Below are positions 6,012-47,732 of a stretch of DNA of 64,000 nt, piece by piece. Position 1 is the first letter of the stretch. The number at the start of each line of letters is the position of its first letter. The stretch covers positions 1-64,000 of the forward strand of contig NZ_SAWZ01000010.1 of NCBI RefSeq assembly GCF_004122095.1, given 5' to 3'. Position numbers and translations under genes: made by a program. Source of the stretch: Pseudoxanthomonas composti. GTDB taxonomy: Bacteria > Pseudomonadota > Gammaproteobacteria > Xanthomonadales > Xanthomonadaceae. Under the pieces are notes generated by a model, which worked only from the letters and a program-made list of their open reading frames with translations, had not been told where the DNA came from and ran no database searches.

Positions 6012-6150
6012 CCGGGACCGGGGACCGGGGACCGGGGACCCGGGAAACAGCGTCCACTGCAGGCGCATGCGCGCCTGCCTGTCCGGCACACGCGCGCGCA
6101 CTTCTGCCTTTGCCTTCCCCGGGTCCCCGGTCCCCGGTCCCCGGTCCCGG
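6012..6150. repeat. Heptad-arm inverted repeat, subtype A (GGGGACC units)
   Basis: A perfect 33-bp inverted repeat has its left arm at 6012-6044 and its right arm at 6118-6150, with a 73-base centre. Each arm is a run of the 7-bp unit GGGGACC (reverse complement GGTCCCC) capped by CCCGGG. The centre has its own 8-bp hairpin (GCAGGCGC ... GCGCCTGC). A CTTTGCC block sits just inside the right arm. It fills the gspE-gspF gap, and the right arm ends 8 bases before the gspF ATG. There is no T-tract, so it does not look like an ordinary terminator. Confidence 0.93.
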
Positions 6151-6158
6151 AACTGCTG

Positions 6159-7373
6159 ATGCCCCTGTACCGCTACAAGTCCCTGGACGCGCAGGGCGAA
6201 ATCCTGGAAGGGCAGATGGAGGCGGCCAGCGATGCCGAGGTGATCGCGCGGCTGCAGGAGCAGGGTCACCTGCCGATGGAGGCGCGGCTGGCCGGGGCCG
6301 GCGGGGGGCGCAGCCTGCGCACCTTGCTCTCGGCCAAGGCCTTCGATGGCGAACGGCTGGTGCAGTTCACCCAGCAGCTGGCGACCCTGCTGGGCGCGGG
6401 GCAGCCACTGGACCGCGCCCTGACCATCCTGCTGGACCTGCCCGAGAGCGAGCGCGCCAAGCGCATCGTCGGCGACATCCGCGACACCGTGCGCGGCGGT
6501 GCGCCGTTGTCGGCCGCGCTGGAGCGCCAGCACGGCACGTTCTCGCGCCTGTACGTGAACATGGTGCGGGCCGGCGAAGCCGGCGGCAGCCTGCACGATA
6601 CGCTGCAGCGCCTGGCCGATTACCTGGAGCGCAGCCGTGCCTTGAAGGGCCGGGTGATCAACGCGCTGATCTACCCGGCGATCCTGCTCGTGGTGGTCGG
6701 CGCGGCGCTGTTGTTCCTGCTGGGCTACGTGGTGCCGCAGTTCGCGCAGATGTACGAAAGCCTGGACGTGCAGCTGCCCTGGTTCACCCAGGCGGTGCTG
6801 ACCCTGGGCCTGTTCGTGCGCGACTGGTGGCTGTTGCTGGTGGTGGTGCCCTGCGTGGCGGTGCTGCTGCTGGACCGCAAGCGCCGCGACCCGGCCTTCC
6901 GCGACCGCCTGGACCACTGGCTGCTGCAGCGTCCGGGCATTGGCTCGCTGCTGGCCAAGCTGGAAACCGCGCGGCTGGCGCGCACGCTGGGCACCTTGCT
7001 GCGCAACGGCGTGCCATTGCTGTCGGCACTGGGGATCGCGCGCAACGTGCTGGGCAACCGCGCCCTGGCCAGCGACGTGGAGGCGGCGGCCGATGAGGTC
7101 AAGAACGGCCGCGCCCTGGCCACGGCGCTGTCGCGCCACCAGCGCTTCCCGCGGCTGGCGCTGCAGATGATCCAGGTCGGCGAGGAATCCGGCGCGCTGG
7201 ACACCATGCTGCTCAAGACTGCCGACACCTTCGAGCTGCAGACCGCCCAGGCGATGGATCGCATGCTGGCCGCGCTGGTGCCGCTGATCACCCTGATCCT
7301 GGCCTCGGTGGTGGGCCTGGTGATCGTGGCCGTGCTGGTGCCGCTGTACGACCTGACCAACGCCATCGGATAG
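6159..7373 (+). CDS. gspF: Type II secretion inner-membrane platform protein GspF/XpsF
   Basis: 404 aa. It opens MPLYRYKSLDAQGEILEG, typical of GspF/PilC. Two GspF domains (about 70-190 and 270-390) and three membrane segments are visible, including LLVVVGAALLFLLGYVVPQF and a C-terminal LASVVGLVIVAVLVPLYDL. It couples the GspE motor to the pseudopilus. The only upstream ribosome-binding sequence is a weak GGA close to the right arm of the inverted repeat. It is followed after 6 bases by the small exported protein gene at 7380. Confidence 0.97.
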   Translation: MPLYRYKSLDAQGEILEGQMEAASDAEVIARLQEQGHLPMEARLAGAGGGRSLRTLLSAKAFDGERLVQFTQQLATLLGAGQPLDRALTILLDLPESERAKRIVGDIRDTVRGGAPLSAALERQHGTFSRLYVNMVRAGEAGGSLHDTLQRLADYLERSRALKGRVINALIYPAILLVVVGAALLFLLGYVVPQFAQMYESLDVQLPWFTQAVLTLGLFVRDWWLLLVVVPCVAVLLLDRKRRDPAFRDRLDHWLLQRPGIGSLLAKLETARLARTLGTLLRNGVPLLSALGIARNVLGNRALASDVEAAADEVKNGRALATALSRHQRFPRLALQMIQVGEESGALDTMLLKTADTFELQTAQAMDRMLAALVPLITLILASVVGLVIVAVLVPLYDLTNAIG

Positions 7374-7379
7374 TCCGCG

Positions 7380-7766
7380 ATGCTGCAACCCGCCCGCCCA
7401 GCGTTCCTTTTCGCCGCCTTGGCCTGCCTGCTGCCGGGCGCGGCTGCGGCGGCCGAGGCAACCTCGGCTTCCCCGCATGCCCTGGCCCTGCAGCTGGTGC
7501 TGCAGTCGCAGGCGGCGCAGATCGAGGCGATGGACCGCGAGCTGCCGCGCGAGCACGACACCCTTACCCGTGCGTGGTCGGTCGAACGCGCCATCGCACC
7601 CGGCTTCATCGATACCCGCGGGTTGCTGCAGGTCACCTATCACGTCGATGGCGTGGCGCTGGCGCGCTGGCAGGTGGACCTGGCCGCTGCACGCGTGACC
7701 GAAGCGCCTGTTTCAATGGTCTCCCTTTCTCCCACCGCGGTGTCCCCCGACACCCGACGTCCCTGA
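7380..7766 (+). CDS. Small exported protein of unknown function inside the T2SS operon
   Basis: 128 aa, starting 6 bases after gspF and ending 27 bases before gspG, same strand. A clear Sec signal peptide (FLFAALACLLPGAAAAAEA) is followed by about 100 residues. These include LQLVLQSQAAQIEAMDRELP, which could be a short helix, and a beta-strand-like stretch LLQVTYHVDGVALARWQVDL. The C-terminus (SLSPTAVSPDTRRP) is probably disordered. I do not recognise a family. Position suggests a periplasmic accessory of secretion or a passenger gene. The signal peptide and co-linear spacing make it a real gene rather than a GC shadow. Confidence 0.72.
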   Translation: MLQPARPAFLFAALACLLPGAAAAAEATSASPHALALQLVLQSQAAQIEAMDRELPREHDTLTRAWSVERAIAPGFIDTRGLLQVTYHVDGVALARWQVDLAAARVTEAPVSMVSLSPTAVSPDTRRP

Positions 7767-7793
7767 CGGCAACACTTGCAAGAGGATCCGCCC

Positions 7794-8222
7794 ATGCGTC
7801 GCCATTATTCGCTGAGTCGCTCGCCCGCCCGCCAGGCCGGCATGAGCCTGCTGGAAATCATCATCGTCATCGTGCTGATCGGCGCGGTGCTCACCCTGGT
7901 GGGCAGCCGCGTGCTGGGCGGTGCCGACCGCGGCAAGGCCAACCTGGCCAAGTCGCAGATCCAGACCCTGGCCGGCAAGATCGACAGCTACCAGCTGGAC
8001 ACCAACCGCCTGCCGAGCCGTCTGGAAGACCTGGTGGCCGCGCCTTCCGGCGTGAGCGGCTGGCTGGGGCCATATGCCAAGCCGGCCGAGCTCAACGACC
8101 CCTGGGGCCACCCCATCGAATACCGCGTGCCCGGCGAAGGCCAGCCCTACGAGCTGATCAGCCTGGGCAAGGACGGCCAGCCCGGCGGCGACAGCTACAA
8201 CGCCGACATCCGCTACGAATAA
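7794..8222 (+). CDS. gspG: Major pseudopilin GspG/XpsG
   Basis: 142 aa. The ATG at 7794 has AGAGGA at 7781-7786, so the upstream TTG is not needed. The prepilin-peptidase site is G16|MSLLE with Glu at +5, followed by the hydrophobic helix IIIVIVLIGAVLTLVGSRVL. The C-terminal part has the GspG signature LPSRLEDLV ... WGHPIEYRVPGE, which includes the calcium-loop region, and ends DSYNADIRYE. It is the main pseudopilus subunit. Its size is normal. Confidence 0.97.
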   Translation: MRRHYSLSRSPARQAGMSLLEIIIVIVLIGAVLTLVGSRVLGGADRGKANLAKSQIQTLAGKIDSYQLDTNRLPSRLEDLVAAPSGVSGWLGPYAKPAELNDPWGHPIEYRVPGEGQPYELISLGKDGQPGGDSYNADIRYE

Positions 8223-8234
8223 ACGCAGGCGCGC

Positions 8235-8705
8235 ATGCACCGTCGTCGCGACAGCGCGGGCGTCACCCTGCTGGAGATGCTGCTGGTGGTGGCGCTGCTG
8301 GCCATCGCCGCCGCCCTGGCGGGGATGGTGCTGAGCGGTGGCATGCGCGGCATGCAGCTGCGTGCGGCCAGCCAGGACATCGCCGCGCAACTGCGCTACA
8401 CCCGGGCACGCGCCATCGCCAGCGGCGAGCCGCAGCGCTTCACCATCGAGCCGCGCGCGCATCGCTGGACCGGGGCGGAAGGGCGCCGCGGCGAGATTCC
8501 CGCGGCCCTGTCGGTGGCCTTCACCGGTGCGCGCGAGGCGGCTGGCGCGGCCGCCCCCGCCGACGCGCAGGGCGCGATCCTGTTCTTCCCCGACGGCGCC
8601 TCCACCGGCGGGCGCATCGAGCTGCTGTCCGGCGATGCCGGCTGGCGCGTGGACGTGGGCTGGCTGATGGGCGATGTGCGCCTGCGCCGGGTGGGAAGGT
8701 CCTGA
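8235..8705 (+). CDS. gspH: Minor pseudopilin GspH/XpsH
   Basis: 156 aa, starting 12 bases after gspG. The type III signal SAG9|VTLLE with Glu at +5 is followed by LLVVALLAIAAALAGMVLSG. The rest is a GspH/FimT-like globular domain with the conserved AAQLRYTRARAIASGEP segment. Known GspH proteins take part in the pseudopilus; here the gene sits between the major pseudopilin and gspI, as in xps loci. Confidence 0.93.
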   Translation: MHRRRDSAGVTLLEMLLVVALLAIAAALAGMVLSGGMRGMQLRAASQDIAAQLRYTRARAIASGEPQRFTIEPRAHRWTGAEGRRGEIPAALSVAFTGAREAAGAAAPADAQGAILFFPDGASTGGRIELLSGDAGWRVDVGWLMGDVRLRRVGRS

Positions 8706-8707
8706 GC

Positions 8708-9130
8708 ATGCGCCAGCGCGGCTTCACCCTGATCGAGGTCATCGTCGCCACCGCCCTGCTGGCGCTGGGCCTGACCCTGCTGCTGGGATCGCTGACCGGG
8801 GCGGTGCGCCAGGTGCGCGGCGCCGAGGATGCCGGGCGCGTGGCCCTGCATGCGCAGTCGCTGCTGGCGCAGGTCGGGGTGGGCGCGCCCCTGGAACCGG
8901 GCGAACAGAACGGCAGCTGGGATGAGGGGCGCTATCGCTGGCAGCTGCAGGTGCGGCCGTTTCGCGACCCCGCCCAGCGCGGCGATGCGCCAGTGGCCGC
9001 CGGCAGCCGGCAGCTGATGGAGCTGGTGCTGCAGGTGCGCTGGGATCAGCAGGGCCAGGCGGCCGTGCGCGAATGGCGCGGGCTGCGCCTGGTCAAGGGG
9101 CCCGAAAGCCTGCCTGGAGCGGCCCGGTGA
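8708..9130 (+). CDS. gspI: Minor pseudopilin GspI/XpsI
   Basis: 140 aa. The ATG at 8708 follows the gspH stop by 2 bases. The prepilin site is RQRG5|FTLIE, then [19 protein letters not shown]. Known GspI forms the tip complex with GspJ and GspK, and the three genes are consecutive here. The end overlaps the gspJ start (GTGA). Confidence 0.94.
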
Positions 9131-9777
9131 AGCGCCATGCGCAGGGCTTCACCCTGATCGAAGTGCTGCTGGCCACGGTGCTGCTGGCCACCGGCCTGGC
9201 GCTGGCGCTGGCCTCGATCCGGTCGATTTCGGCAATGACCACGCGCGGGGAGGTCATGTCCCAGCGCAACGAGCGCATGCGCGCGGTGGAAGGCCTGCTG
9301 CGCCGCCGCCTGGCCAGCGCGCGGGCGATCGCCTTTGCCACCGAGGCCGACACGCTGCGGCCGTACCTGTTCGTCGGCGAGCCGCAGCGCATGCGCTTCG
9401 TTTCCGATCTGCCCAACTATCTCGGACGCGGCGGGCCTTATCTGCACGATGTCTATGCCAATGCCGATTACGGCATGCTGATGCTGGACATGACCCTGGT
9501 GCAGGGCGGCCAGCCCATGCCCGAGCGCAGCCCGCGCCCTCCCGAGCGCTTGGCCGAAGGCCTGGACAGCGTGCGCTTTCGCTACCGTGGGCTGGCCGAG
9601 AACGGTGGCCTGGGCCCCTGGCAGGAGCGCTGGGACCAGGTCGACGCCTTGCCGGTGCAGGTGGCCATCCTGGTGCAGCCGCGCCAGGAAGCGCCGTGGC
9701 CGGAGCTGGTGGTGACGCTGGCCGAAGGCAATGGCGGCGGCGCCGCGGCCAGCGCGCCGTCGGGGCTGCGCCGATGA
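9127..9777 (+). CDS. gspJ: Minor pseudopilin GspJ/XpsJ
   Basis: 216 aa. The chosen start is the GTG at 9127 that overlaps the gspI stop. It gives MKRHAQG7|FTLIE, the correct distance from the prepilin cleavage site; starts further upstream would add an implausible leader. The helix [19 protein letters not shown] follows. The C-terminal half has the GspJ pattern [16 protein letters not shown] and WDALPVQV-like strands ([13 protein letters not shown]). It is a partner of GspI and GspK at the pseudopilus tip. Confidence 0.94.
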
Positions 9778-10622
9778 CGCGCATGCGCGGGGCCGCGCTG
9801 GTGCTGGTGCTGTGGCTGATCGTGCTGGCCACCGCGCTGATCGGCAGCTTCGCGCTGTCGGCGCGGGTGGAGGCGCTGCAGGGGCGGGTGGCGATCGATG
9901 GCGTGGGCGCCTACGAAAGCGCGCGTGCCGGCGTGGAGTACGCGCTGCTGCGGCTGGAGGACATGGACCCGCGCAGCCACTGGCAGCCCGATGGCCGGCC
10001 CTATGCCTGGCGCTTCCACGACAGCGCGCTGGAAGTGCGCATCGTCGATGAGAGCGGCAAGGTCGATCTCAACCTGGCTGATGTGCAACTGCTGACCCAG
10101 CTGTGCCGCGCGGTGGGCATCGCGCCCGAGCGCGCCGCACAGCTGGCCGGGGCGATCGTGGACTGGCGCGACGGCGATCCGCTGACCCAGCCCGGTGGCG
10201 GCGCCGAGGATCCGGACTATGCCGCGGCCGGTTTGCCCTATGGGGCCAAGGACGCGCCGTTCGAAAGCCTGGGCGAGTTGCAGCAGGTGCTGGGCGTGAC
10301 CCCGCAGGACTACGAGCGCCTGCTGCCCAACGTGACGCTCTATTCCAACCTGGCCCAGCCGGAGATGCGCTTTGCGCAGGCGCCGGTGCTGGCCGCGATG
10401 GGCATGGACGCCGAACTGGTGCAGTCCCAGAGACTGCTACCCGGCGTCAGTGGCGCACCGGCGGCGGAGCGCGGCAGCGGCACGTATAGTATTGAGAGCC
10501 GCGCGCGGCTGGCCAATGGACGCGTGGCGGTTCTACGGACGGTGGTGCGACTGGGCGAGGGCCCGGTGCCGGGTTCGATGTATACGGCGCTGCGCTGGGA
10601 GGAAACGTGGGCACCCCGATGA
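9774..10622 (+). CDS. gspK: Minor pseudopilin GspK/XpsK
   Basis: 282 aa, ATGA overlap with gspJ. The N-terminus RMRG6|[20 protein letters not shown] is a prepilin signal without Glu at +5, which is the normal GspK exception. A large globular insertion typical of GspK follows, with [17 protein letters not shown] and two helix-hairpin-like stretches ending [20 protein letters not shown]. It caps the pseudopilus tip. The family is clear from length and motifs. Confidence 0.95.
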
Positions 10623-11770
10623 ACACCGTGACGACGCCAGCCAATGCGATGGAGGCCCGAGGGGCTGCGCTGGTCGAGCGCGTGCGGCTGTTCCTGGCAT
10701 GGTGGAAGCGCTCGTTGCTGCTGTGCCTGCCGCGCAGCTGGCGGCGCGTGCTGGGCCTGGGCGATGACCGCGTGCTGATCTACCTGCGCGATGCGGCGCT
10801 GGTCCTGGACCGCGACACCGGCGATGCGGTGACCGCCCTGGCCGAGCTGCCAGCCGAGGCGCAGGCGCTTCCCGATTCCCTGCTGGGCGCGCGCCTGGCC
10901 GCGCTGCCGCGCTGGGCGGTACTGCCGGCGCACGTGGCGTTGCGGCGGCGGCTGCGCCTGCCGGCCGCGGCCGCCGGACGCCTGCGCGACGTGGTGGGCT
11001 TCGAGATCGACCGGCAGACCCCGTTCACCGCCGATGCGGTGCATTACGACGCGCGCGTGCTGGAGCGGCGCGAGGACGGGCGTCTGGAGGTGGAGCTGGT
11101 GGTGGTGCCGCGCGAGGCGGTGCAGCGCGTGGTGACCCAGCTGACGCCGCTGAGCGGCGAACTGGCGGGCGTGGACGTGTTCGACGAGCTGCATCAGCCG
11201 CTGCGCGTGAACCTGTTGCCGGCGGCCCAGCGCGGCCGGCGTGGCAGCGGCCAGCGCAGCATCTCGCTGGTGCTGGCCGCGGTGGCGGTGATTGCCTTGC
11301 TCGGGGCGGCCTCGATCGTGCTGGACAACCGCCGCGATGCCGCCACCGCCCTGGAGGCGCAGGTGCGCAGCCGCGCCGAGGCGGCGCGCACGGTGGCGCT
11401 CAAGCGCCAGCAGCTGGTGGACCTGATCGACGGCAATACCTTCCTGGCCCAGCGCCGCACGGCCTTGCCGGCCACGCTGCAGGTGCTGGACGAGCTGACC
11501 CAGCGCCTGCCCGATGGCACTTACCTGGAGAAGGTCAGCATCGAGAACAACCGCCTGCTGGTAATCGGCCTGAGCTCGGAGGCGGCGTCGCTGGTCGGGC
11601 GCATGGAGGGCGCACCGTACTGGCGCAACCCGGCGCTGAGCGGTGCCCTGCAGCCGGACCCGCGGGTGCGGCGCGATCGCTTCAGCATGGTGGCCGAGCT
11701 GGTGCCGCCGCCACGGCTGTCCGCGGCCAGCACGCCGGCTGGCGCGGCTGCACCGGGGGCGCGCCGATGA
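10619..11770 (+). CDS. gspL: Type II secretion protein GspL/XpsL
   Basis: 383 aa from the ATG at 10619, which overlaps the gspK stop (ATGA). A GTG at 10607 is possible and is better placed for the GGGAGG at 10597-10602, so the start is uncertain by four codons. The cytoplasmic domain contains [20 protein letters not shown], typical of the PilM/GspL fold that binds GspE. One membrane segment, [19 protein letters not shown], is followed by a periplasmic coiled-coil and PilN-like domain. It links the ATPase to the inner-membrane platform and pairs with GspM. Confidence 0.93.
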
Positions 11771-12411
11771 GCGCGCGCAGCGACAAGCACGACCGCTGGC
11801 TGGCGCTGGCCCTGCTGCTGGCGGTACTGGCGCTGGTCTACCTGTTGTGCGTGCACCCGTGGTGGACCGAGCCGATGCTGGTGGAACAGGACCGCATCGC
11901 CCAGGCCCAGGCGCGCAGCCAGCGGGTGGAAGCCGCGCTGCGGCAGGCGCCGCAGATCGACCGCGAGCTGGCCGCCCTGCGTGCGCGTCTGGCCGATCGC
12001 CCCGGCTTCCTGCCCGAATCGACCGTCGAGCTGGCCACCGCCGGCCTGGTGCAGCGGCTGGAGCAGGTGGTGGCCGAGGCCAGCCCGGGCAACCGCAGCT
12101 GCGCCATCACCAACCGCTCGCCGATGACGGACATGGTGGCCGACCGCTATGCGCGCGTGGTGGTGCAGGCGCGGCTGCGCTGCGGCACGCCGGAGCTGGC
12201 ATCGGTGCTGTACGCGTTGGAAAGCGGCGCGCCACGGCTGTTCGTGGACAACCTCAACATCCTGGCCCTGCGCACCAGCTACCTGCCGGTGGAGGCCGGG
12301 CGCGGCAGCAACAGTGGCGGCCTGGACATCAGCTTCGATCTCTACGGGTTCCTGGCGCCCTCGGCCAGCGCCACGGCCGTGCCTGCACAGGGAGGCGCCG
12401 ATGCGCGCTGA
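11767..12411 (+). CDS. gspM: Type II secretion protein GspM/XpsM
   Basis: 214 aa, ATGA overlap with gspL. A short cytoplasmic N-terminus is followed by the membrane helix WLALALLLAVLALVYLLCVH, a coiled-coil-like region (DRIAQAQARSQRVEAALRQA) and a ferredoxin-like periplasmic domain. GspM stabilises GspL. Sequence conservation in this family is low; order and topology carry the call. Confidence 0.88.
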   Translation: MSARSDKHDRWLALALLLAVLALVYLLCVHPWWTEPMLVEQDRIAQAQARSQRVEAALRQAPQIDRELAALRARLADRPGFLPESTVELATAGLVQRLEQVVAEASPGNRSCAITNRSPMTDMVADRYARVVVQARLRCGTPELASVLYALESGAPRLFVDNLNILALRTSYLPVEAGRGSNSGGLDISFDLYGFLAPSASATAVPAQGGADAR

Positions 12412-13204
12412 CGGCTGGACCCTGCGCACCTGGATCCTGGCGGCCATCGCCGGCCTGTCGGTGCTAGTGCTGTTGCTGGCACTGGCGGGCATGGGCGCGC
12501 GCCTGCCGACCTCCGCGCCGGAAGACCCCGCGCCCCTGCCCAGCACCGCGTCCCTGCCTAGTGCCGACATCGGCCTGCAGTCGCGCGAGGCCTACGCAGC
12601 CATCGCGCAGCGGCCGCTGTTTTCCGACAACCGCCAGCCGCAGCCGTTCTTCATCGAAGGCCAGGGCCCGGCCGAGGGCGGCGGTGCCTTCAATTTCGTG
12701 CTGACCAGCGTGCTGCTGGCCGGGCAGACCCGCCTGGCCATCCTGCAACCGCCCGAGGGCGGCAGCTCGGTGCGCTTCAAGCTGGGAGAAAGCGCCGAGG
12801 CCTACCCGGACTGGCGCCTGGTGACGCTGTCCGCGCGCAGCGCCACCTTCGAAGGCCCCGAGGGCGTGCGCACCCTGGACCTGCGGGTGTTCGACGGCAA
12901 GGGCGGCGAGCGCGCCACCCAGCTGCAGCAGTTCCAGGGCAATGGCGAGAACGCCAGCGCGCAGCAGGCCGAGCGCCGCCAGCCCGCGGCCAATGCGCCG
13001 CAGCAGGCGCCGGTGCCCGCGCTGTCCGGACAGACCGCCAACACGCGCCCGCCACAGCCGCCGGCGAACACCCCCACCCCTGGCGCGCCCGCCAACAACG
13101 CGCCCACGCCCTCGGATGAGCAGGTCCAGGCCATCCGTGCGCGCATCCAGCAGCGACGCGCGGAGCTGCGGCGCGAGCAGCAATCCTCCGGAAACGGCCA
13201 ATGA
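12401..13204 (+). CDS. xpsN: XpsN-type T2SS subunit (GspC-like function)
   Basis: 267 aa. The ATG at 12401 follows GGAGG at 12391-12395 and overlaps the end of gspM. One N-terminal membrane anchor (WILAAIAGLSVLVLLLALAG) precedes a homology-region-like domain (AIAQRPLFSDNRQP, LTSVLLAGQTRLAILQPPEG), then a long Pro/Ala/Gln-rich tail. Xanthomonads lack a canonical gspC in this operon; XpsN, just before the secretin, is known to bridge inner membrane and secretin. Length, topology and position match. The tail ends in charged residues (RIQQRRAELRREQQ). Confidence 0.87.
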   Translation: MRADGWTLRTWILAAIAGLSVLVLLLALAGMGARLPTSAPEDPAPLPSTASLPSADIGLQSREAYAAIAQRPLFSDNRQPQPFFIEGQGPAEGGGAFNFVLTSVLLAGQTRLAILQPPEGGSSVRFKLGESAEAYPDWRLVTLSARSATFEGPEGVRTLDLRVFDGKGGERATQLQQFQGNGENASAQQAERRQPAANAPQQAPVPALSGQTANTRPPQPPANTPTPGAPANNAPTPSDEQVQAIRARIQQRRAELRREQQSSGNGQ

Positions 13205-15444: not shown

Positions 15445-15458
15445 GGGCGCCCACCCGC

Positions 15459-32962: not shown

Positions 32963-33015
32963 GCTCACTCCTCACTCCTCCCCGCTCACTCCTGCCTCAA
33001 GCACTCCTGCCTCAC
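32963..33015. repeat. Heptad-arm repeat, subtype C, right-arm half only (C2)
   Basis: Reading on the minus strand, the unit GAGGAGT recurs in the same arrangement as in the complete element at 47649-47732, with one mismatch in the GGAG spacer. A second partial copy of the end (CACTCCTGCCTCA) follows. No matching left arm is visible nearby. It lies between the ettA stop and its terminator. Confidence 0.75.
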
Positions 33016-36950: not shown

Positions 36951-37076
36951 GAGCGAGGAACGAGTGAAGAGGAACGAGAAACGAGTGGAAAGCCGTGCCG
37001 CATGTACGCTTGTGCATTCGGCCCGGGCCGTTGTCTTTGCTCTAACTCGTTCCTCGTTCCTGCATACTCGTTCCTA
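36951..37076. repeat. Heptad-arm inverted repeat, subtype B (GAGGAAC units), B1
   Basis: Left arm 36951-36990 and right arm about 37043-37076 pair through units of GAGGAAC with a few mismatches. The arrangement is one unit, a short spacer, then two adjoining units. The centre holds a CGGCCCGGGCCG-like palindrome, and CTTTGCTC stands at the inner edge of the right arm. It starts directly after the glyA stop and runs to 5 bases before nrdR. Confidence 0.88.
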
Positions 37077-37081
37077 GCCCC

Positions 37082-38835: not shown

Positions 38836-38864
38836 GCCTAGGCCGGTCCTCCGGCATCCATGAA

Positions 38865-39075
38865 CGTCTTCAGGGCGGGGTGAGATTCCCCACCGGCGGT
38901 AGATGCGCTGATCGCGCATGAGCCCGCGAGCGCTGGGTCGGCAATGGTGGTTCGCTTGCGCCACATGGCGGGTGCGAACCGCTCAGCGCCAGCCCAGGTC
39001 AGCAGATCCGGTCCGACGCCGGAGCCGACGGTTGGCAACTCCCGAGCTGCCAGAAAGTCCGGATGAAAGAAGACG
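38865..39075 (+). ncRNA. FMN riboswitch (RFN element)
   Basis: P1 is formed by 38865-38871 and 39069-39075. All conserved blocks are present: AGGGCGGGGTGAGATTCCCC, ACCGGCGGTA, GAGCCCGCGAGCG, GTCAGCAGATCCGGT, GGAGCCGACGGT and AGTCCGGATGAAA. One peripheral arm (about 38931-38997) is unusually long, closed by CTGGG/CCCAG. It sits between ribD and riboflavin synthase, so FMN should repress ribE-ribB-ribH and possibly nusB/thiL, but not ribD. Confidence 0.97.
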
Positions 39076-39082
39076 ACCCCCA

Positions 39083-39130: not shown

Positions 39131-39156
39131 CGCTTCGACTTCTTGCGAGAAACGTG

Positions 39157-39813: not shown

Positions 39814-40922
39814 ACTTCGCGCCGATCCAGGAGATCCTGGAGGACATCCGCCAGGGCCGCATGGTGGTGATCGTCGACGACGAGGACCGCGAGAACGAAG
39901 GCGACCTGATCATGGCCGCCGAGCTGGTCAAGCCCTCGGACATCAACTTCATGGTCACCCACGGCCGTGGCCTGGTGTGCCTGCCGCTGACCCGCGAACG
40001 CGCCACGCAGCTGGGCCTGGCACCGATGGTCCAGGCCAATACCGCGCAGTTCCAGACCAACTTCACCGTCAGCATCGAGGCCGCCGAGGGCGTGACCACC
40101 GGCATCTCGGCCTACGACCGCGCCCACACCATCCGCACGGCTGTCAAGCCCGATGCCAAGCCGGCCGACCTGCACCAGCCGGGCCACATCTTCCCGTTGA
40201 TCGCCCAGCCCGGTGGCGTGTTGACCCGTGCCGGCCATACCGAGGCGGGCGTGGACCTGGCCATGCTGGCCGGGCTGGAGCCGGCCGGCGTGCTGGTGGA
40301 GATCCTCAACGCCGACGGCAGCATGGCGCGTCGCCCGGAGCTGGAAGTGTTCGCGCGCGAGCACGGCCTGAAGATGGGCTCCATCGCCGATCTGATCGCC
40401 CATCGCCTGGCCACCGAGCACACCGTCGAGCGGGTGGACGAGCGCGAGATCGAGACCGAGTTCGGCCCGTTCCGCCTGGTCACCTATCGTGACCGCATCG
40501 CCCGCGACCTGCATTTCGCCCTGGTCAAGGGCACGCCGGACGCCGCCACGCCGACCCTGGTGCGGGTGCAGGTGGAAAACCCGCTGGCCGATCTGCTGCA
40601 CTGGCGCCGCGACGATTTCGGCGTGGCCGCCACCGATGCGCTGCGCGCCATCGCCGGCGAAGGGCAGGGCGTGATGGTGGTGCTGTCCGCGCCACGCGAT
40701 TCGGAGGCCCTGCTGTCGCGCCTGCTGCGTGAGCCGGAAGTCCGGCCGCCGGGCAAGGACAAGGACGTGGGCCAGTGGCGCCGCAACGGCGCCGGCGCCC
40801 AGATCCTGACCGACCTGGGACTGGGCAAGCTGCGCGTGCTGGGCACGCCGCGGCGGCAGGTGGGCTTGGCGGGGTATGGGCTGGAAGTGGTGGAGATGTT
40901 CGAGCCGGGGAACCCTGCTTGA
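39810..40922 (+). CDS. ribB: DHBP synthase with degenerate GTP-cyclohydrolase-II-like domain (RibBX type)
   Basis: 370 aa, GTG start overlapping the ribE stop. The N-terminal domain is a complete 3,4-dihydroxy-2-butanone-4-phosphate synthase: DDEDRENEGDLIMAAE, GLVCLPLTRERA, HQPGHIFPL and RAGHTEAGVDLAMLAG. The C-terminal half (about 205-370) aligns in pattern with RibA (RDLHFALVKG, GAGAQILTDLGLGKLRVLGT). However, the three zinc-binding cysteines (CxGDxxxSxxCxC) and the EGRGIGL catalytic segment are missing. Known RibBX proteins lack cyclohydrolase activity, so a separate ribA is expected elsewhere. The C-domain may be structural or regulatory. Confidence 0.93.
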   Translation: MNFAPIQEILEDIRQGRMVVIVDDEDRENEGDLIMAAELVKPSDINFMVTHGRGLVCLPLTRERATQLGLAPMVQANTAQFQTNFTVSIEAAEGVTTGISAYDRAHTIRTAVKPDAKPADLHQPGHIFPLIAQPGGVLTRAGHTEAGVDLAMLAGLEPAGVLVEILNADGSMARRPELEVFAREHGLKMGSIADLIAHRLATEHTVERVDEREIETEFGPFRLVTYRDRIARDLHFALVKGTPDAATPTLVRVQVENPLADLLHWRRDDFGVAATDALRAIAGEGQGVMVVLSAPRDSEALLSRLLREPEVRPPGKDKDVGQWRRNGAGAQILTDLGLGKLRVLGTPRRQVGLAGYGLEVVEMFEPGNPA

Positions 40923-41020
40923 GAAACGAGCGACGAGGAACGAGGAACGAGTGAAAGCGTGCCCACGTGGGCGCTCGGCGTTTCGCTCGTTCCTCGTTCC
41001 TCTCCACTCGTTCCTAGCTC
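40922..41020. repeat. Heptad-arm inverted repeat, subtype B, B2
   Basis: The left arm (about 40922-40956) and right arm (about 40982-41020) pair over a perfect 17-base core made of GAGGAAC units plus flanking imperfect pairs. The centre is the palindrome GCCCACGTGGGC. A GCGTTTCGCTC block stands at the inner edge of the right arm, comparable with CTTTGCTC in B1. It starts directly at the ribB stop. Confidence 0.88.
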
Positions 41021-41061
41021 CAAGACGCTAAACTGCCCGACTTTCCCGATCCCCCCCGCCC

Positions 41062-41529
41062 ATGACCCACTACGAAGGCGAGCTGCGTGCCGTGCCAGGC
41101 GCCCGCTACGCGATCATCGCCAGCCGCTGGAACGCCCGCATCGTCGATGCCCTGGTGGCCGGTGCGCGCAAGGAACTGGCCGGCAACGGCGTGGATGAGT
41201 CGGCCATCGACGTGGTCCGCGTGCCCGGCGCGTGGGAGCTGTCGCTGGTGGCCATGCGCCTGGCCAAGGCCGGACGCCACGCGGCGGTGATCGCGCTGGG
41301 TTGCGTGATCCGGGGCGATACCCGCCATTACGAGCACGTGGCGGACGGCTGTGCCGAAGGCCTGCTGCAGGCGCAATTGCAGCACGGCGTGCCGGTGCTC
41401 AATGGCGTGCTGGCGGTGGAGCGCATCGAGGACGCAGAAGCCCGCGCAGGCGGCAGCCACGGCAACAAGGGCGAGGAAGTGGCCCTGGCCGCGGTGGAAA
41501 TGGTCAACCTGATGGAGCAACTGCCATGA
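41062..41529 (+). CDS. ribH: 6,7-dimethyl-8-ribityllumazine synthase
   Basis: 155 aa. It condenses the RibD product with DHBP. Motifs: [36 protein letters not shown] and [20 protein letters not shown] with the catalytic His region. No good Shine-Dalgarno precedes the ATG; the upstream bases are a C-rich run after repeat B2. TAAACT at 41029-41034 could be a -10. It overlaps nusB by ATGA. Confidence 0.97.
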
Positions 41530-41990
41530 ACCGTCCCGGACAGCGTCGCGACGGCGTCGACCCCGTGCACCGCACCCGCGCGCGTCGCCGCGCGCTGCAG
41601 GCCATCTACGCCTGGCAGGTCTCCGGCGGCAACCCGCAGCAGGTGATCTCGCAGTTCGCCCATGAGCAGGCCCATGAGATCGCCGACCTGGAGTATTTCG
41701 AGGATCTGGTGCGCGGCACCATGCAGCACACCGCCGAGCTGGACCAGGCCCTGCTGCCGCATCTGGACCGCACCGTGGACGAGGTCGACCCGATCGAGCG
41801 TGCGGTGCTGCGCATCGCCGCCTACGAGCTGCGCCATCGCGTGGACGTGCCGTATCGCGTGGTGATCAACGAGGCCATCGAGACCGCCAAGCGCTTCGGC
41901 GCCGAGCATGGCCACACCTACGTCAATGGCGTGCTCGACCGCGCCGCCCTGGACTGGCGCGGCCCGGAAACCCGGGCCAGAACCCCGTAA
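41526..41990 (+). CDS. nusB: Transcription antitermination factor NusB
   Basis: 154 aa, ATGA overlap with ribH. An RNA-binding helical protein that with NusE (S10) recognises boxA in rRNA operons. Motifs: [50 protein letters not shown] and [20 protein letters not shown]. The C-terminal GPETRARTP tail is disordered. The ribH-nusB-thiL order is typical. Confidence 0.97.
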
Positions 41991-42012
41991 CGGGCGCCGC
42001 ATCCGCGTTGTT

Positions 42013-42050
42013 CTCACTCGTTCCTCGTTCCTCTCCACTCGTTCCTGCCT
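42013..42050. repeat. Heptad-arm repeat, subtype B, right-arm half only (B3)
   Basis: A stretch of about 30 bases identical to the right arm of B2 (units GAGGAAC on the minus strand) ends one base before the thiL ATG. No left arm is present after nusB. The preceding CGTTGTTCTC resembles the inner-edge block of the complete elements. Confidence 0.85.
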
Positions 42051-42051
42051 C

Positions 42052-43002
42052 ATGCCAGTCGGCGAATTCGACCTGATCGATCGCATCCGCGCCCGCGCCC
42101 GCACGCGCGGCGACGTGGTACTGGGCATCGGCGACGATGCCGCGCTGCTGCAGCCGCAGCCCGGCTGCGAGCTGGTGGTGACCGCCGATACCCTCAATGT
42201 CGGCGTGCATTTCCTGGAGGACACCGCGCCGGAGGACATCGGCTGGAAGTCGCTGGCGGTCAATCTGTCCGACCTGGCTGCGATGGGAGCCTCGCCATCG
42301 TGGTGCACGCTGGCGCTGGCCCTGCCGCAGAGCGATCCGGCCTGGCTGGATGGCTTCATCGGCGGTTTCCTGGAGCTGGCGCAGAGCGCCGGCATCGCCC
42401 TGGTCGGCGGCGATACCACGCGCGGGCCGCTGTCCATCTCCGTGACCGCGATGGGGCAGGCGCCTGCGGGGCGGGCGATCCGACGTTCCGGCGCCCAGGT
42501 GGGCGACGACCTGTGGGTGACCGGCACGCCGGGCGATGCCTGCAGCGCGCTGCACGCGATCTGGGCCGGCGTGGTCCCCGACCCGGCATTGCGCCGTCGC
42601 ATGAACCGTCCGACCCCGCGCAACGCCGCCGGCTTGGCCTTGGTCGGCCTGGCTAACAGCTGCGTGGATATCTCCGATGGCTTGCTCGGCGATCTGGGCC
42701 ACATCTGCAAGGCCAGCGGCGTGGGCGCGGAGGTGATGCTGGAGCAGTTGCCTGCCTCGCGCGCGCTGTCTCGGTTCGCGCCGGCCGTGCGTTGGCCCTG
42801 GCAGGCCAGTGGCGGCGACGACTACGAGTTGTGCTTCAGCGCACCGGCCGCGCAGCGCGAGGCCATCGTCCAGGCGATGGCGGGCGCTCAAACCCAGGCG
42901 ACCCTGATCGGTCGCATCGTCCAGGGCCAGGGCGTGATCGCGCTGGATGGGGACGGACAGCCCTGGAACTCCGGCCGCCCCAGCTTCCAGCATTTCAGCT
43001 GA
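42052..43002 (+). CDS. thiL: Thiamine-monophosphate kinase
   Basis: 316 aa. It phosphorylates thiamine monophosphate to the diphosphate. Motifs: GEFDLIDRIRA, GIGDDAALLQ, ADTLNVGVHF, KSLAVNLSDLAAMGA, LVGGDTTRGPLSISVTA, CVDISDGLLGDLGHI and SGGDDYELCFSAP. No Shine-Dalgarno is visible because repeat B3 occupies the upstream bases. It is the last gene of the rib-nusB-thiL run. Confidence 0.97.
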   Translation: MPVGEFDLIDRIRARARTRGDVVLGIGDDAALLQPQPGCELVVTADTLNVGVHFLEDTAPEDIGWKSLAVNLSDLAAMGASPSWCTLALALPQSDPAWLDGFIGGFLELAQSAGIALVGGDTTRGPLSISVTAMGQAPAGRAIRRSGAQVGDDLWVTGTPGDACSALHAIWAGVVPDPALRRRMNRPTPRNAAGLALVGLANSCVDISDGLLGDLGHICKASGVGAEVMLEQLPASRALSRFAPAVRWPWQASGGDDYELCFSAPAAQREAIVQAMAGAQTQATLIGRIVQGQGVIALDGDGQPWNSGRPSFQHFS

Positions 43003-43345
43003 GCAGGACGGGCGCCGGTCCAGGCGGCACGTTGCCCTGCAGCCATCTCGAATAACGTCTGGAGCATGCTGCGGGAGCGGTGCGGGGTGACCTCGGGTCA
43101 TCGGCCGCAAGAGGGGCTTCCCGGGAATGCCATGCGCGGCTGATGGCCCGAGGCCACCTCGAGCCGCTCCCGCTCGGGCCCGGTGTGGCGAAGGCAGGTA
43201 GTTCAGGATCGCTTATTGCGGTGCAGCTTGGTGACCGGCCATGCGTATGCGTATGGTTCGGCCGCGCCTCCGCCGACGTGATGGCCAGAAGGCGCTTCTC
43301 GCGCGGGTCACCCCGGCCCGCTTCCAAGCAGTGGAGGCATGTCGT
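43003..43345. other. 343-bp intergenic region with an imperfect inverted repeat
   Basis: It contains the D2 inverted repeat (43071-43173) and a tandem ATGCGT stretch at about 43240. The frame of the following hydrolase stays open upstream to 43241, but codons there do not look coding, and a signal peptide fixes the start at 43346. No other feature seen. Confidence 0.7.
43071..43173. repeat. Imperfect inverted repeat with GCGGGAGCGG ends (D2)
   Basis: 38-base arms (43071-43108 and 43136-43173) match at about 32 positions, with a 27-base centre. The outer 10 bases of both arms are identical (GCGGGAGCGG) and resemble the GTGGGAGCGG ends of D1, but the interior differs. It is in the gap upstream of the alpha/beta-hydrolase gene. 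Confidence 0.85.
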
Positions 43346-44923
43346 ATGCGCAGCCTGTTCCGCGGTTTGATGTGCATGGTGTTGCTGGCCTGGTCGGCCA
43401 CGTCCCTGGCCGGCGACTATCGCAAAACCTATCAGCGGGTGCCCAGCTTCGATGGGGTCGAGCTGGGCGCGTTGGTGTTGGTGCCCAGCGGGCAGGGCAG
43501 TGGGCCGTTTCCCCTGGTGGTGATGCCGGCGAGCTGGTCGCTGCCCAACCTGGAGTACCTCGGGCGCGCCAATCAGCTGGCCGCCGATGGCTACGTGGTG
43601 GTCAGCTACACCTCGCGCGGCTTCTGGGATTCGGCCGGGCTGATCGACATCGCCGGCGAGGCGACGGTGGAGGATGTCAGCGCAGTGATCGACTGGGCTC
43701 TGGCCCATACGCCGGCCAGCCCCGGCGCCATCGGCGTGTCGGGGATTTCCTATGGCGCCGGCACCAGCCTGCTGGCGGCCGCGCGCGACCCGCGCATCAA
43801 GGCGGTCGCGGCGTTGAGCGGCTGGGCGGACCTGCAGGCCTCCTTGTACGCCAACGACACGGTCAGCTCGCAAGGGGTGGGACTGCTGGTGGGCTCCGGC
43901 GCGCTGACCGGCCGCCCCGGGCCGGAGCTTGCGGCGATCAACGCCAAGGTCGCCGTGGGCGACTTCGATGGCGCCGTGCAGGGGTTCGTGCCCAAGGCCG
44001 CAAGCCGAAGCGCAGCTTTCGAGGTCGACCAGCTCAATGAAAGCGGCACCGCGATTCTGCTGGCCAACGCCTTCAACGATGGACTGTTCCCGCCCAACCA
44101 GCTCGTGGACTTCTACCAGCGTCTGCGCGGGCCGAAGCGGCTGCTGCTGGGACAGGGCGACCATGCCACGGCCGAGCTGCCCGGTGCGCTGGGCCTGCCC
44201 AACAGCGTGTACGAGGAAGTGCAGGTGTGGTTCGACCATCACCTCAAGGGCCGGCAGGTGCAAGGACTGGCGCCTGCCTCGGTCCGCCTGACCACCCTGG
44301 GCGGCTGGCCGCTGGATTACCGGGACTGGACCCAGGTGCAGGCCGATCCCACGGTCTACGGCCTGGGTCGGCCGACCGGGCTGCAACCCACTGGCGCCCT
44401 GGTGCAGGGCGATGCGACGGGCTGGAGCCATCGCATCGGCACCGCGGTGCCGACCGCGGCCACCTCCGGCGTGGTCCTGGTCAGCGGCGCCCTGCAGGGA
44501 TACCTGCGCCAGCCGGTGAGGACCTCGATTCCGCTGGTCGCCAGGACCGGCGCGACGGTCTGGGCGGGCCCAGCGCTGTCGCGCGCGCGAACCTTGGCTG
44601 GCGCCGCGGCGTTGCGGGTCACGGTGACGCCAAGCCAGCGCGACCTGAGCCTGTTCGCCTATCTCTACAGCGTCGATGGACTGGGGATGGGCGACCTGAT
44701 CACCCATAAGCCCTACAGCCTGCGCGGCGTCGCGCCGGGGCAGCCGCAGACCCTTGAGATCCAGCTCGAGGCCGCGGCGGCGGAGATCCCGGCCGGGCGC
44801 AGGCTGGTGCTGGTCGTGGACACCCTGGATGCGCGCTACAGCGCGGTGACGCGACCCTTCGGCTCGGTGACCTTTTCCTCGCCGGCCGCGGCGCCGTCGC
44901 GGCTGAGCGTGCCGCTGCGCTGA
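43346..44923 (+). CDS. Secreted alpha/beta-hydrolase of the CocE/X-Pro dipeptidyl-peptidase (S15) type
   Basis: 525 aa. The ATG at 43346 has GGAGG at 43333-43337 and begins a signal peptide (LFRGLMCMVLLAWSATSLAG). The hydrolase domain has the nucleophile elbow GVSGISYGA with Ser135, a probable acid Asp245 (AFNDGLFPP) and His273 (GDHATAE), in the order and spacing of S15/CocE enzymes. The C-terminal third (about 350-525) is a beta-rich domain like PepX_C/CocE_C (SYSLRG-type region HKPYSLRGVAPGQPQTLEI). It probably cleaves an ester or Xaa-Pro peptide in the periplasm or outside. Substrate is unknown. Confidence 0.85.
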   Translation: MRSLFRGLMCMVLLAWSATSLAGDYRKTYQRVPSFDGVELGALVLVPSGQGSGPFPLVVMPASWSLPNLEYLGRANQLAADGYVVVSYTSRGFWDSAGLIDIAGEATVEDVSAVIDWALAHTPASPGAIGVSGISYGAGTSLLAAARDPRIKAVAALSGWADLQASLYANDTVSSQGVGLLVGSGALTGRPGPELAAINAKVAVGDFDGAVQGFVPKAASRSAAFEVDQLNESGTAILLANAFNDGLFPPNQLVDFYQRLRGPKRLLLGQGDHATAELPGALGLPNSVYEEVQVWFDHHLKGRQVQGLAPASVRLTTLGGWPLDYRDWTQVQADPTVYGLGRPTGLQPTGALVQGDATGWSHRIGTAVPTAATSGVVLVSGALQGYLRQPVRTSIPLVARTGATVWAGPALSRARTLAGAAALRVTVTPSQRDLSLFAYLYSVDGLGMGDLITHKPYSLRGVAPGQPQTLEIQLEAAAAEIPAGRRLVLVVDTLDARYSAVTRPFGSVTFSSPAAAPSRLSVPLR

Positions 44924-44945
44924 CCAGGCAAACGGGCTGGTGGGT

Positions 44946-44968
44946 CGACGCGCTCACCGGACGCGTCG
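44946..44968. terminator. Possible bidirectional terminator between hydrolase and yraN
   Basis: A 7-bp stem (44946-44952 with 44962-44968) with a 9-base loop lies in the 65-base gap between two convergent genes. There is no strong T run on either side, so the call is weak. Confidence 0.3.
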
Positions 44969-44988
44969 GCCGTGAACGACGATGCCCT

Positions 44989-45369
44989 TTAGACCTCGTC
45001 CGCGCGAAAGGCATCGCGCAGCCAGTTGAGGATGGGCTTGGCCGCCTCGCCGCTGGCTTCGACCACGTCGAAGCGGCAGGGCAGGTCCGCGTAGCGCGGG
45101 TGCTGGGCCAGGTACAGCGAGGCGGCCCGCACCAGCTTGCGGCGCTTGCCGGCATCCACCGAGGCCGCGCCGCCGCCGAAGGCTGACGAGCGCCGGTAGC
45201 GCACTTCCACGAACACCAGGGTCGGCCCGCCGCGCGCGTTCGGGTCCAGCATCACCAGGTCCAGTTCGCCGCCGCGGAACCGCACGTTGGCAGCCACCGG
45301 CTTCAGGCCGGCGCGTTGCAGTTCGGCCTGTGCGGCGGCTTCGACCGCCGCACCGGTGGCCTCAGCCAC
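44989..45369 (-). CDS. YraN/UPF0102 family protein (endonuclease-fold)
   Basis: 126 aa from a GTG at 45369 whose first codons overlap the lpoA stop (GTGGCTGA). The longer open frame upstream lies inside lpoA and was discarded. Family motifs: [44 protein letters not shown] and [19 protein letters not shown]. The GELDL and EVR residues belong to a restriction-endonuclease-like active site. The biochemical role is not settled; yraN next to lpoA and rsmI is a widely conserved arrangement. Confidence 0.92.
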
Positions 45370-46753
45370 CCTCGGCGATCGGGGTCGGGCGGCCGCCGCT
45401 GAAGGTGGCCCATGCCGGCGCGCGCTGCACATTGCCGAAGCCGTCCAGCGACAGCACGCCGGTGGCGCCACGCAAGGTGGCGTTGGCGCCCAGGCTCAGC
45501 TTCTCCAGGTAGGCGGTCAGCTGCCAGGCGTCGAAACCGAAGGCGAACAGGCGCGCCGCACCGCCACGCGCGGTCGGCAAGGTGCTGGCCACGCTGCTGG
45601 CCGCCGGCAGGCCTTCCACCCCGCGCGCGGTCCAGGCCTCGGTCGGATAGATGATGCCGTCGAGCACGCGGTCCTCTTCGGCCTTGCCGGTGCCCTGGGT
45701 CAGCTGCGAGCTGCCTACCCGCGCCTTGCCGGCCAGGCCGGACATGGCCAGCTGCGGCGCCAGCACCCGGGCGGTGCTGCCCTTGATCGACAGGAACACC
45801 GCGTCCACGCCCTGCGAGGCGGCAGCCGTCAGCGCGGCCAGCATGTCCGGCGGTGCATCGGCCACGGCGATGGTCTGGGTGACATTGCCGCCCAGCTCGG
45901 TGAAGTGTTCGGCGAAGGCGGTGGCCGCGCGCGTGGCGTTGTCGTCCTGGCCACGGATCACCAGCACCTGCTTGTGCTCGCGCTGGAACAGGTAGTCGGC
46001 CGCGCCGATGCCGTCGTCCTCCGGCGCCAGGGAGAAGCCCACGGCGGTAGCCGGTGGCTCGCTGCTGCCGCGGTTGAGGGCCAGCAGCGGCACCGGCAGC
46101 GACGGCTGGCCGAACACCGCACCGACCTCATCGCGACCCAGCGGGCCGACCACGAAATCCGCCCCGGCCTGCTGCGCCTTGCCGTAGGCGGCCAGCGCGC
46201 CGGCGGGCGTGCCGGTGGTGTCGATGAACTGGATCTCGGGGCGGCGGCGGGATTCGCCGTAGTAGCCGGCCAGCAGGCCGTCACGCACCGGCGCGGCGGC
46301 CACGGCGAGCGGGCCGGACAAGGGCAGCAGCACTGCCAGCTTCACCGGCGGGCGGTAGCCATCGCGATCGGCCGGCGGGCGCTGGGCCGCCTCGAAGTTC
46401 CACGCCGTGGCGCGGTCGAACGGGCGCGGCAGGGCCAGGCCGCGGTCGGCCATCAGCTTGCCGGCATAGGGGTACAGCGGGTCGCCCACCGGCAGCGCGC
46501 CGGTCTCCTTGGACAGGGTGGGATTGTCCAGACCCTGCAGCAGTTGCTGGATCTTGCGGACATTCTCGGCCCGCGCCTGGCCGGTCAGCTGGGCGCCGCT
46601 GCGCGCCAGGTCGGCCGCCTGCCGGAATGCGGCGCTGCCGGCCGCCGAGGGATGCGGACCGCCGCCACCGCCGCTGGTCTGGGTGGTGGCGCAGCCGCCG
46701 AGCAGCAACGCCGATACCAGCACCGGGGCAATCCACGCAAAACGCTTGTCCAT
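45362..46753 (-). CDS. lpoA: LpoA-like lipoprotein activator of penicillin-binding protein (LppC family)
   Basis: 463 aa. The lipobox LLGG|C21 gives an outer-membrane lipoprotein. After a shortened N-terminal helical part, the LppC/LpoA C-terminal domain with a periplasmic-binding-protein fold runs from about residue 135: [52 protein letters not shown] and [12 protein letters not shown]. In E. coli LpoA stimulates PBP1a. This protein is about 200 residues shorter than E. coli LpoA, mainly at the N-terminus. Divergent from rsmI, as in E. coli. Confidence 0.93.
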
Positions 46754-46788
46754 GGGGTTCGAGGGCCAGCCTTGTTGAACAGGCTACG

Positions 46789-46794
46789 ATTCTA
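46789..46794 (-). promoter_or_regulatory. Candidate -10 element for lpoA
   Basis: Minus-strand TAGAAT 36 bases before the lpoA start, in the 78-base gap between divergent lpoA and rsmI. On the plus strand TACGAT at 46785-46790 could serve rsmI, overlapping it. Confidence 0.4.
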
Positions 46795-46831
46795 CCCCTG
46801 CCTGCCCGTCCGCCTCGAAGACCCGCCGTTC

Positions 46832-47671
46832 ATGTCCGCAGCAACGTTGTTCGTCGTCGCCACCCCCATCGGCAACCTCGCCGACCTGTCCGCCCGCGCG
46901 CTGGAGACTTTGCGCACGGTGGATGCCATCTGCGCCGAGGACACCCGCCGCACCGGCCAGTTGCTGTCGCATTTCGGCATCGCCACGCCGCTGGTGGCGT
47001 TGCACGAGCACAACGAGGACGCCATGGCCGAGCGCATCGTCGCCCGCCTGCAGTCTGGGCAGTCCCTGGCGCTGGTCAGCGATGCCGGCACCCCGCTGGT
47101 CTCCGATCCGGGCTACCGGCTGGTCAAGGCCGCACGCGCGGCCGGGGTGGCGGTCAGCCCGGTGCCCGGGGCGTGCGCGGCCATCGCCGCGCTGAGCGTG
47201 GCCGGCCTGCCCAGCGATCGCTTCGCCTTCGAGGGCTTCCTGCCGGCCAAGTCCGCCGCGCGCCGCGAGCGGCTGTCCGCCCTGGCCGGCGAGTCCCGCA
47301 CCCTGGTGTTCTACGAGTCCTCCCACCGCATCGCCGAATCCCTGGCCGACCTGGTGCGGGCGCTGGGCCCGGAGCGGCCGGCGACCATCGCGCGCGAGCT
47401 GACCAAGCTGTTCGAGACCGTCCTGGCCGGCAAGCTGGCTGAGCTGCTGGCAAAGGTCCAGGCCGACGACAACCAGCGCAAGGGCGAGTTCGTGGTCATG
47501 GTGCAGGGTGCCGGCGAGGACGCCGGCGCGCAGATCGCCGAAGGTCGCCGCGTCTACGCCTTGCTCAACGCGCACCTGCCGCCGTCCACCGCGGCCAAGC
47601 TGGCCGCGGAGATCACCGGGGCGCCGCGGAAGGCGTTGTACGGAAGTCGAGAAGTGAGTGGAGAGGAGTGA
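46832..47671 (+). CDS. rsmI: 16S rRNA (cytidine1402-2'-O)-methyltransferase RsmI
   Basis: 279 aa, SAM-dependent methyltransferase acting on C1402 of 16S rRNA (with RsmH, also encoded in this window, modifying the same base). Motifs: LFVVATPIGNLADLSARALE, CAEDTRRTGQLL, ALVSDAGTPLVSDPGY, PVPGACAAIAALSVAGLP and YESSHRIAESL. The last residues (REVSGEE and the stop) are encoded by the left arm of the heptad-arm repeat C1, so the repeat has become part of the gene's end. The long upstream extension of the frame lies opposite lpoA and is not used. Confidence 0.97.
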   Translation: MSAATLFVVATPIGNLADLSARALETLRTVDAICAEDTRRTGQLLSHFGIATPLVALHEHNEDAMAERIVARLQSGQSLALVSDAGTPLVSDPGYRLVKAARAAGVAVSPVPGACAAIAALSVAGLPSDRFAFEGFLPAKSAARRERLSALAGESRTLVFYESSHRIAESLADLVRALGPERPATIARELTKLFETVLAGKLAELLAKVQADDNQRKGEFVVMVQGAGEDAGAQIAEGRRVYALLNAHLPPSTAAKLAAEITGAPRKALYGSREVSGEE

Positions 47672-47732
47672 GAAGTGAGCGCAAGCCCGTTCTCGCCTTT
47701 GCTCACTCCTCACTCCTCTCCGCTCACTCCTC
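47649..47732. repeat. Heptad-arm inverted repeat, subtype C (GAGGAGT units), C1
   Basis: Left arm 47649-47679 and right arm 47701-47732 pair almost perfectly. The layout is the same as subtype B (one unit, GGAG spacer, two units), but every unit is GAGGAGT instead of GAGGAAC. The short centre ends in CGCCTTTGCTC next to the right arm. The left arm encodes the end of RsmI and the right arm covers the -35 area of rnpB. Confidence 0.93.

Follow-up and report, generated by a model that had tools for sequence, protein, structure and literature searches.

Matched arms and changing units in the intergenic heptad palindromes of Pseudoxanthomonas composti and its relatives

How can an intergenic palindrome keep its layout while the units from which it is built come to be spelled differently? 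The question is raised by six elements in a 64,000-nucleotide stretch of DNA from Pseudoxanthomonas composti (contig NZ_SAWZ01000010.1, positions 1 to 64,000; the whole stretch is called the window here), the arms of which consist of 7-bp units. Heptamer repeats are reportedly over-represented in many bacterial genomes (Rehm et al. 2015, PMC4692102), and they have no agreed origin or role. An original prediction, made from the window alone, had described the six elements as three subtypes (A, B and C) of one class whose arms are homogenised by copying; elements and units were found just as described. We propose that these heptad palindromes are maintained by arm copying through template switching, with the unit being overwritten in place, and we put the probability of this reading at roughly 0.65.

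In the 4.33-Mb genome we observed at least four unit types, GGGACC (A), AGGAAC (B), AGGAGT (C) and GGGATT; the three predicted subtypes thus stand, and the fourth is common elsewhere in the genome. The pattern GAGGARYGAGGARYGAG matches the genome 287 times, against 25 times for its reversed form, and a general three-unit pattern, which reveals the GGGACC and GGGATT types too, matches 156 times against 41. Among the 100 GAGGARYGAGGARYGAG matches listed, AAC-AGT joins are absent although the pattern permits them, and AGC or AAT is present in four. Arms were read in the window and in 106 partly overlapping loci of this genome, picked for pattern matches among those listed; as it was selected by perfect two- or three-unit matches, this sample favours pure arms and is not a full census. 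A single unit type makes up 169 of its 178 arms, AGGAAC and AGGAGT together accounting for 142. Convergent arms match in type in 64 of 67 pairs (33 B/B, 16 C/C, nine A/A, six GGGATT; three discordant), against a mean of 24.0 and a maximum of 41 in 10,000 shuffles, which bears out the predicted homogenisation of the arms.

The unit types also have their architecture in common, namely the heptad period, the arm length, the inverted layout, the intergenic placement (judged for the window elements and orthologous gaps) and similar outer edges, which tend to GRGC(C/G); A, B and C can hence be regarded as subtypes of one class, as predicted. Arms of four heptads predominate among A (14 of 20), B (60 of 77) and C (36 of 41) arms and make up 5 of 12 GGGATT arms (this genome, arms of at least three heptads), the B and C counts including a variant second heptad. 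The order in B and C arms is unit, variant unit, unit, unit, AG; what had been taken for a GGAG spacer is a variant form of the second unit (mostly AGYGNAG), itself 7 bp long, so that the period is kept. With up to four mismatches allowed, 72 arms of B and 52 of C enter our alignment, 19 and 6 of them being exact; long arrays are counted repeatedly in it and one arm is present in both lists. The predicted block beside the right arm was confirmed in part: RGCAA within 24 bp inside the arm, on either strand, is enriched for A (6 of 20 arms) and C (13 of 41) and weak or absent for B (9 of 77) and GGGATT (0 of 12), the 20-bp outer flank, taken as control, having it in two A, two C, six B and no GGGATT arms.

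Change of units at one and the same site can be followed between glyA and nrdR, where the window element B1 occupies the whole gap from stop to start codon. Arrays are found in 12 of 56 such gaps from other genomes, in seven unit types (G and L numbers are our handles for genomes and for loci or contigs): GGGATT (L108, L122, L127, L142, L180), GGGACT (L151), GGGAAT (L178), GTGATT (L162, L172), GTGAGC (L179), AGAAGT (L149) and AGAAAC (L154), the window itself having AGGAAC. Fourteen of the 56 gaps had been flagged as repetitive, two of which (L125, L169) were dropped as G+C-rich and not arrays, and several long Stenotrophomonas "gaps" are probably not true gaps. Judged by eye, the units are GGGACC in L134 and L170, AGGAAC-like in L145, GGGATC in L174 and GGGATT in L176. 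Within the genus the site was read in 30 of 38 genomes, of which 14 have an element, 13 a short empty gap and two other inserts, with G119 unclear; this set overlaps the first (L108/G150, L149/G148, L154/G151, L145/G124, L176/G139), so that the counts are not additive.

Six of these elements (G117, G142, G143, G129, G125 and G151) have common flanks and form one group with homologous loops, 9 of 15 pairs scoring z >4, and the units around these loops differ. Five of them are mosaics of AAC and AGT: both arms of G117 read AAC, variant, AGT, AAC from the outside in, most positions are AGT in G143 and AAC in G142, and the outer unit of G129 is AGT on the left arm and AAC on the right, G125 being the fifth. 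Such orthologous mosaics are intermediates; they indicate that units change stepwise, singly or in small groups, and the prediction that AAC had become AGT in all units at once is not upheld. Furthermore, G125 and G151 have their loop the other way round from the remaining four, as seen for G117/G125 (z 9.1 inverted against 1.6 in the same orientation), G129/G151 (9.5 against 1.6) and G142/G151 (7.0 against 0.3). Sixteen loops give 120 pairs, each of which was scored in both orientations, with loop borders set by hand and 4 and 3 end bases trimmed so that the arms gave no score; 16 pairs exceeded z 4, and G125 or G151 takes part in each of the six among these that scored higher when inverted. 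The loops of G150/G149 and those of two Xanthomonas genomes match in the same orientation (z 5.2 to 7.6).

A comparison of the sister genomes G129 and G143 adds a directed change. Scanning about 0.5 Mb of each gave 14 and 15 elements, and all 14 G129 sites were located in G143; G143 has five further elements, and for one of them, at L243:11976, the corresponding place in G129 has no heptad element. At six of the 14 sites the G143 element has a homologous loop (z 6.9 to 15.3), arms differing in these pairs at 30 of 345 sites and loops at 47 of 315. One of these six orthologues (G129 C1:2247970) has the same left arm in both genomes and a single difference among 36 loop sites. The G129 right arm equals the C consensus (0 of 30 differences), and the G143 right arm has three of the four left-arm variants, clustered, which reduces the arm mismatches from four to one. 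A weaker two-base case, in another of the six, concerns two adjacent outer units with one base difference each, where right units 1-2 of G143 equal its left units 2-3 and those of G129 equal its own right units 3-4.

What process would leave such traces? The element is best pictured as an intergenic palindrome of the Lysobacterales in which a variable loop separates two inverted arms, each usually four 7-bp units long. As the DNA is replicated, the nascent strand may switch between the arms in the manner of quasipalindrome-type template switching, which would copy one arm onto the other and at times flip the loop; switching, together with slippage between tandem units, could then spread a variant unit stepwise within an element. 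Arm copying and slippage would thus preserve period seven and the hairpin even as the unit is rewritten at its site. We infer that the copying is done by polymerase template switching rather than by a recombinase, and that slippage homogenises the tandem units. Template switching between inverted repeats is reported to lead to arm homogenisation and spacer inversion (PMC8604942, PMC8794818). Both signatures are present here, the former as clustered substitutions matching the arms (one polarised three-site tract and the weaker two-site case) and the latter in situ in G125 and G151 at glyA-nrdR, and they speak for the strand switching that had been named as a possible homogeniser. Template switching fits these data and needs no dedicated enzyme. 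Taken together, the idea of a single class with arms homogenised through strand switching is largely supported, albeit by few polarised events. Sites at which related species have differently spelled heptads, with loop inversions and an arm-copy tract, amount to a natural record of template switching, and they carry a warning that changes matching across a stem can arise by copying and not from selection for pairing.

Several observations weigh against this reading. No more than two inverted loops, from a single site, and one directed tract were found, and the direction of this tract is given by the family consensus and not by an outgroup. Nine of the 15 loop pairs in the six-element group pass z 4, and the glyA-nrdR mosaics contain mismatched arm positions, so that copying between arms is incomplete there. 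Mixed arms (9 of 178) and discordant pairs (3 of 67) also occur in this genome. Three of the 14 G129 sites have an element of another type in the same gap of G143 without detectable loop similarity, which looks like replacement or re-insertion; one has an element of the same type, again without detectable loop similarity, and four are elementless in G143, presence being polymorphic between close congeners. Moreover, copying within elements leaves unexplained that a few unit types are common to dozens of loci of one genome, the loops of which are unrelated.

Some of these points would be expected if the types were separately mobile subfamilies resembling miniature inverted-repeat transposable elements, moved by an unidentified transposase and reinserting at hot gaps, so that elements are replaced and not rewritten. 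We consider this unlikely, though a serious possibility. The general pattern is present in 79 of 119 family genomes, with counts that differ strongly inside genera, and the B/C pattern in 18 of 38 genus genomes. Bursts are suggested by 238 B/C matches in this genome, 251 in G063 and 232 in G151 (reversed controls 13, 49 and 24), against 7 in G148, 2 in G149 and 4 in G150, the nearest relatives, which are 84 to 86% identical across the glyA-nrdR region. Mobility would likewise suit the other-type elements at three G129 sites, the B-type and C-type arms lying side by side (e.g. L011, L019, L058) and the ribBA-ribH gap of element B2, in which 9 of 11 congeners read have no heptad element. However, loops are unrelated between loci of this genome, except for neighbouring duplicates and an apparent nested other repeat, which argues against recent whole-element copying; we thus reject recent whole-element transposition within this genome. 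Common loops under different units, in addition, need change in place, and by-eye inspection, the only kind made, noticed no flanking target duplication.

Nor does any gene tested clearly track the repeats. Y1_Tnp, the domain by which we followed the RAYT transposases of repetitive extragenic palindromes (REPs), has matches in 83 of 119 genomes, and its correlation with repeat abundance is weak (Spearman 0.20, p 0.03; Fisher p 0.11, 0.15 and 0.02 for at least 20, 50 and 100 matches, all without phylogenetic correction). It is absent from 10 genomes with at least 50 heptad matches and present in 25 of 40 heptad-free genomes; heptad arrays lie near the Y1 gene in one of 20 Y1 loci read (L190) and not at this genome's own (L191). 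The aligned heptad arms have no GTAG/GTGG REP head. A RAYT/Y1_Tnp driver, with a correlation weak and not exclusive, was therefore rejected, and the REP-type transposase that had been suggested is not supported. Reverse transcriptase, found in 22 of 119 genomes including this one, was judged by reading of the tally not to fit. Template switching between inverted repeats is raised in Escherichia coli cells deficient in ExoI and ExoVII. ExoI is present in 118 of 119 genomes, and its loss was ruled out as a cause on reading this tally.

A more radical view holds that the repeat is independent of its letters: period 7, unit number 4 and the inverted layout would be inherited, the unit being overwritten repeatedly. 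Overwriting in place would be joined by lone arms seeding new loci, and a machinery, or a property of the replisome, would drive this and fix the period and not the sequence. We regard this as doubtful.

Selection on a hairpin or G-quadruplex, keeping the arms matched via compensatory base-pair changes, is improbable in our view. The four full elements do fold strongly as single strands, each better than all 200 shuffles (z -10.7, -7.3, -6.4 and -6.5), and Rehm et al. report that GGGAATC repeats form quadruplexes in vitro, are transcribed and preferably have four units. Yet pairing makes no demand for identical neighbouring tandem units and does not predict loop inversion. By sequence reading, GGG tracts are present in A and GGGATT arms and missing from the B and C consensus, the arms of which still reach four heptads in the proportions given above; a three-tetrad quadruplex thus cannot be the common cause of four units and is, on the consensus, rejected as their reason in B and C. 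Chance simple-sequence drift with a coincidental resemblance of A, B and C is hardly credible, since, even if G+C-rich, purine-rich intergenic DNA can yield short repeats and the reversed controls also match (25 and 41 times), inverted pairs of tandem arrays at most 300 bp apart occur at period 7 alone (seven, against none at any other period in the range 4 to 15, eleven in all, in 1,504,637 bases of the window and 80 related ribH-centred loci, where lone arrays at other periods do exist, up to 29 at period 6 against 38 at period 7), arm types agree in 64 of 67 pairs, and B and C conserve the four-heptad layout with its variant second unit.

The class is not undescribed, as had been thought. 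In two Xanthomonas genomes GGGNATC heptads form 186 and 183 repeats with 70 and 75 convergent pairs; 83% of the repeats in one (Xcc) are positionally conserved in the other (Xac), and they are mostly intergenic, preferably between aligned genes, with a four-unit preference and a role left open (PMC4692102). That paper covers GGGAATC and the Nostoc GGGGA(C/T)T, and its main text is without the terms Stenotrophomonas, Xylella, Pseudoxanthomonas, spacer and conversion. Our elements resemble the Xanthomonas repeats in period, intergenic position, frequent convergent inverted pairs, four-unit preference and positional conservation, and differ from them in the G-poor AGGAAC/AGGAGT and the GTGATT/GTGAGC units, in type concordance, in the differing types per site and in loop inversion. 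GGGATT fits GGGANTN, and GGGACC, AGGAAC and AGGAGT, the last two of which make up 142 of 178 sampled arms, do not; we therefore file the present elements as a wider class than the exact GGGNATC/GGGANTN repeat. New here are the G-poor types, the four-heptad arm without GGG tracts and the fixed-site history. Among the titles and abstract openings listed in our literature search, with subscription papers mostly outside its scope, none describes turnover of unit types or inversion of the loop for these elements.

With the template switching of PMC8604942 and PMC8794818 the elements have in common arm homogenisation in clustered tracts and spacer inversion (both published for yeast coding genes) and hairpin maintenance (published for RNA genes); in the present case template switching is proposed for a heptad family that is dispersed, on the time scale of species and with tandem-unit turnover in addition. 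Hairpin-associated small inversions of chloroplasts (e.g. PMC2903610) are likewise linked to palindromes in intergenic DNA, but they are plastid and do not form a dispersed heptad family. REPs and bacterial interspersed mosaic elements with RAYT (Nunvar et al. 2010, PMC2817692) are also dispersed intergenic palindromes in Xanthomonadaceae; heptads differ from them by the missing GTAG/GTGG head, another repeat logic and no clear Y1_Tnp tracking. The Beggiatoaceae TAACTGA heptamers (PMC4679880) have period 7 and many intergenic loci in common with our elements, unlike which they are direct repeats (169 sets, one indirect) of other sequence and clade. An unrelated REP-like repeat, TGTAGGAGCGGGCC..., is located in the gap matching L243:11976 in L240 (G142) and L255 (G125), which suggests that several families of repeats accumulate in the gaps behind stop codons.

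Some minor observations concern arrays at other loci. Whole heptad elements are locally duplicated, two or three copies in a row, in L066, L079, L087 and L101, and very long arrays reach about 14 GGGATT units (L067, near 1512-1610) and about 13 AGGAGTG units (L106, near 1477-1566). In the Rhodanobacteraceae contig L171, heptad types stand side by side (GGGAGTG, GAGGGCC, GTGAGCG, GGGACTC). The repeated 7-mer AAACCTC is conspicuous in the ribBA-ribH gap of L177, and TCGACAG in the "nusB-thiL" gaps of L114, L117 and L131, which were defined by wrong-frame queries. The best matches of the window's ribH, 82 and 81% identical, are both Pseudoxanthomonas records, records of the same genome possibly being excluded; L137, titled Bacillus subtilis, has a ribH 80% identical to it, like Stenotrophomonas records, and looks mislabelled or contaminated.

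In the window itself, A, B1, B2 and C1 are full inverted repeats, and B3 and C2 are single arms; neighbouring gene names are from NCBIfam and RNA genes from Rfam. Element A (6012-6150) has a left arm of GGGGACC heptads at 6012-6045 on the forward strand and a right arm at 6118-6150 on the reverse strand, immediately 5' of a GspF/XpsF-type gene. The lone arm C2 (32964-32993, reverse; element near 32963-33015), of AGGAGTG units, lies past the 3' end of ettA. B1 (36951-37076) has its left arm (36956-36985, forward) following the glyA stop codon and its right arm (37046-37075, reverse) ahead of the nrdR start codon. B2 (40922-41020) sits between ribBA and ribH, its left arm (40922-40951, forward) overlapping the ribBA stop codon by one base and its right arm (40986-41015, reverse) lying 5' of ribH. 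B3 (42017-42046, reverse; element near 42013-42050) is upstream of thiL. C1 (47649-47732; left arm 47650-47679, forward; right arm 47702-47731, reverse) lies upstream of the RNase P RNA gene, and the class A RNase P RNA at 47761-48119 (326.3 bits) follows it immediately. An FMN riboswitch (Rfam RF00050, 82.4 bits) is located at 38862-39078, 5' of ribE.

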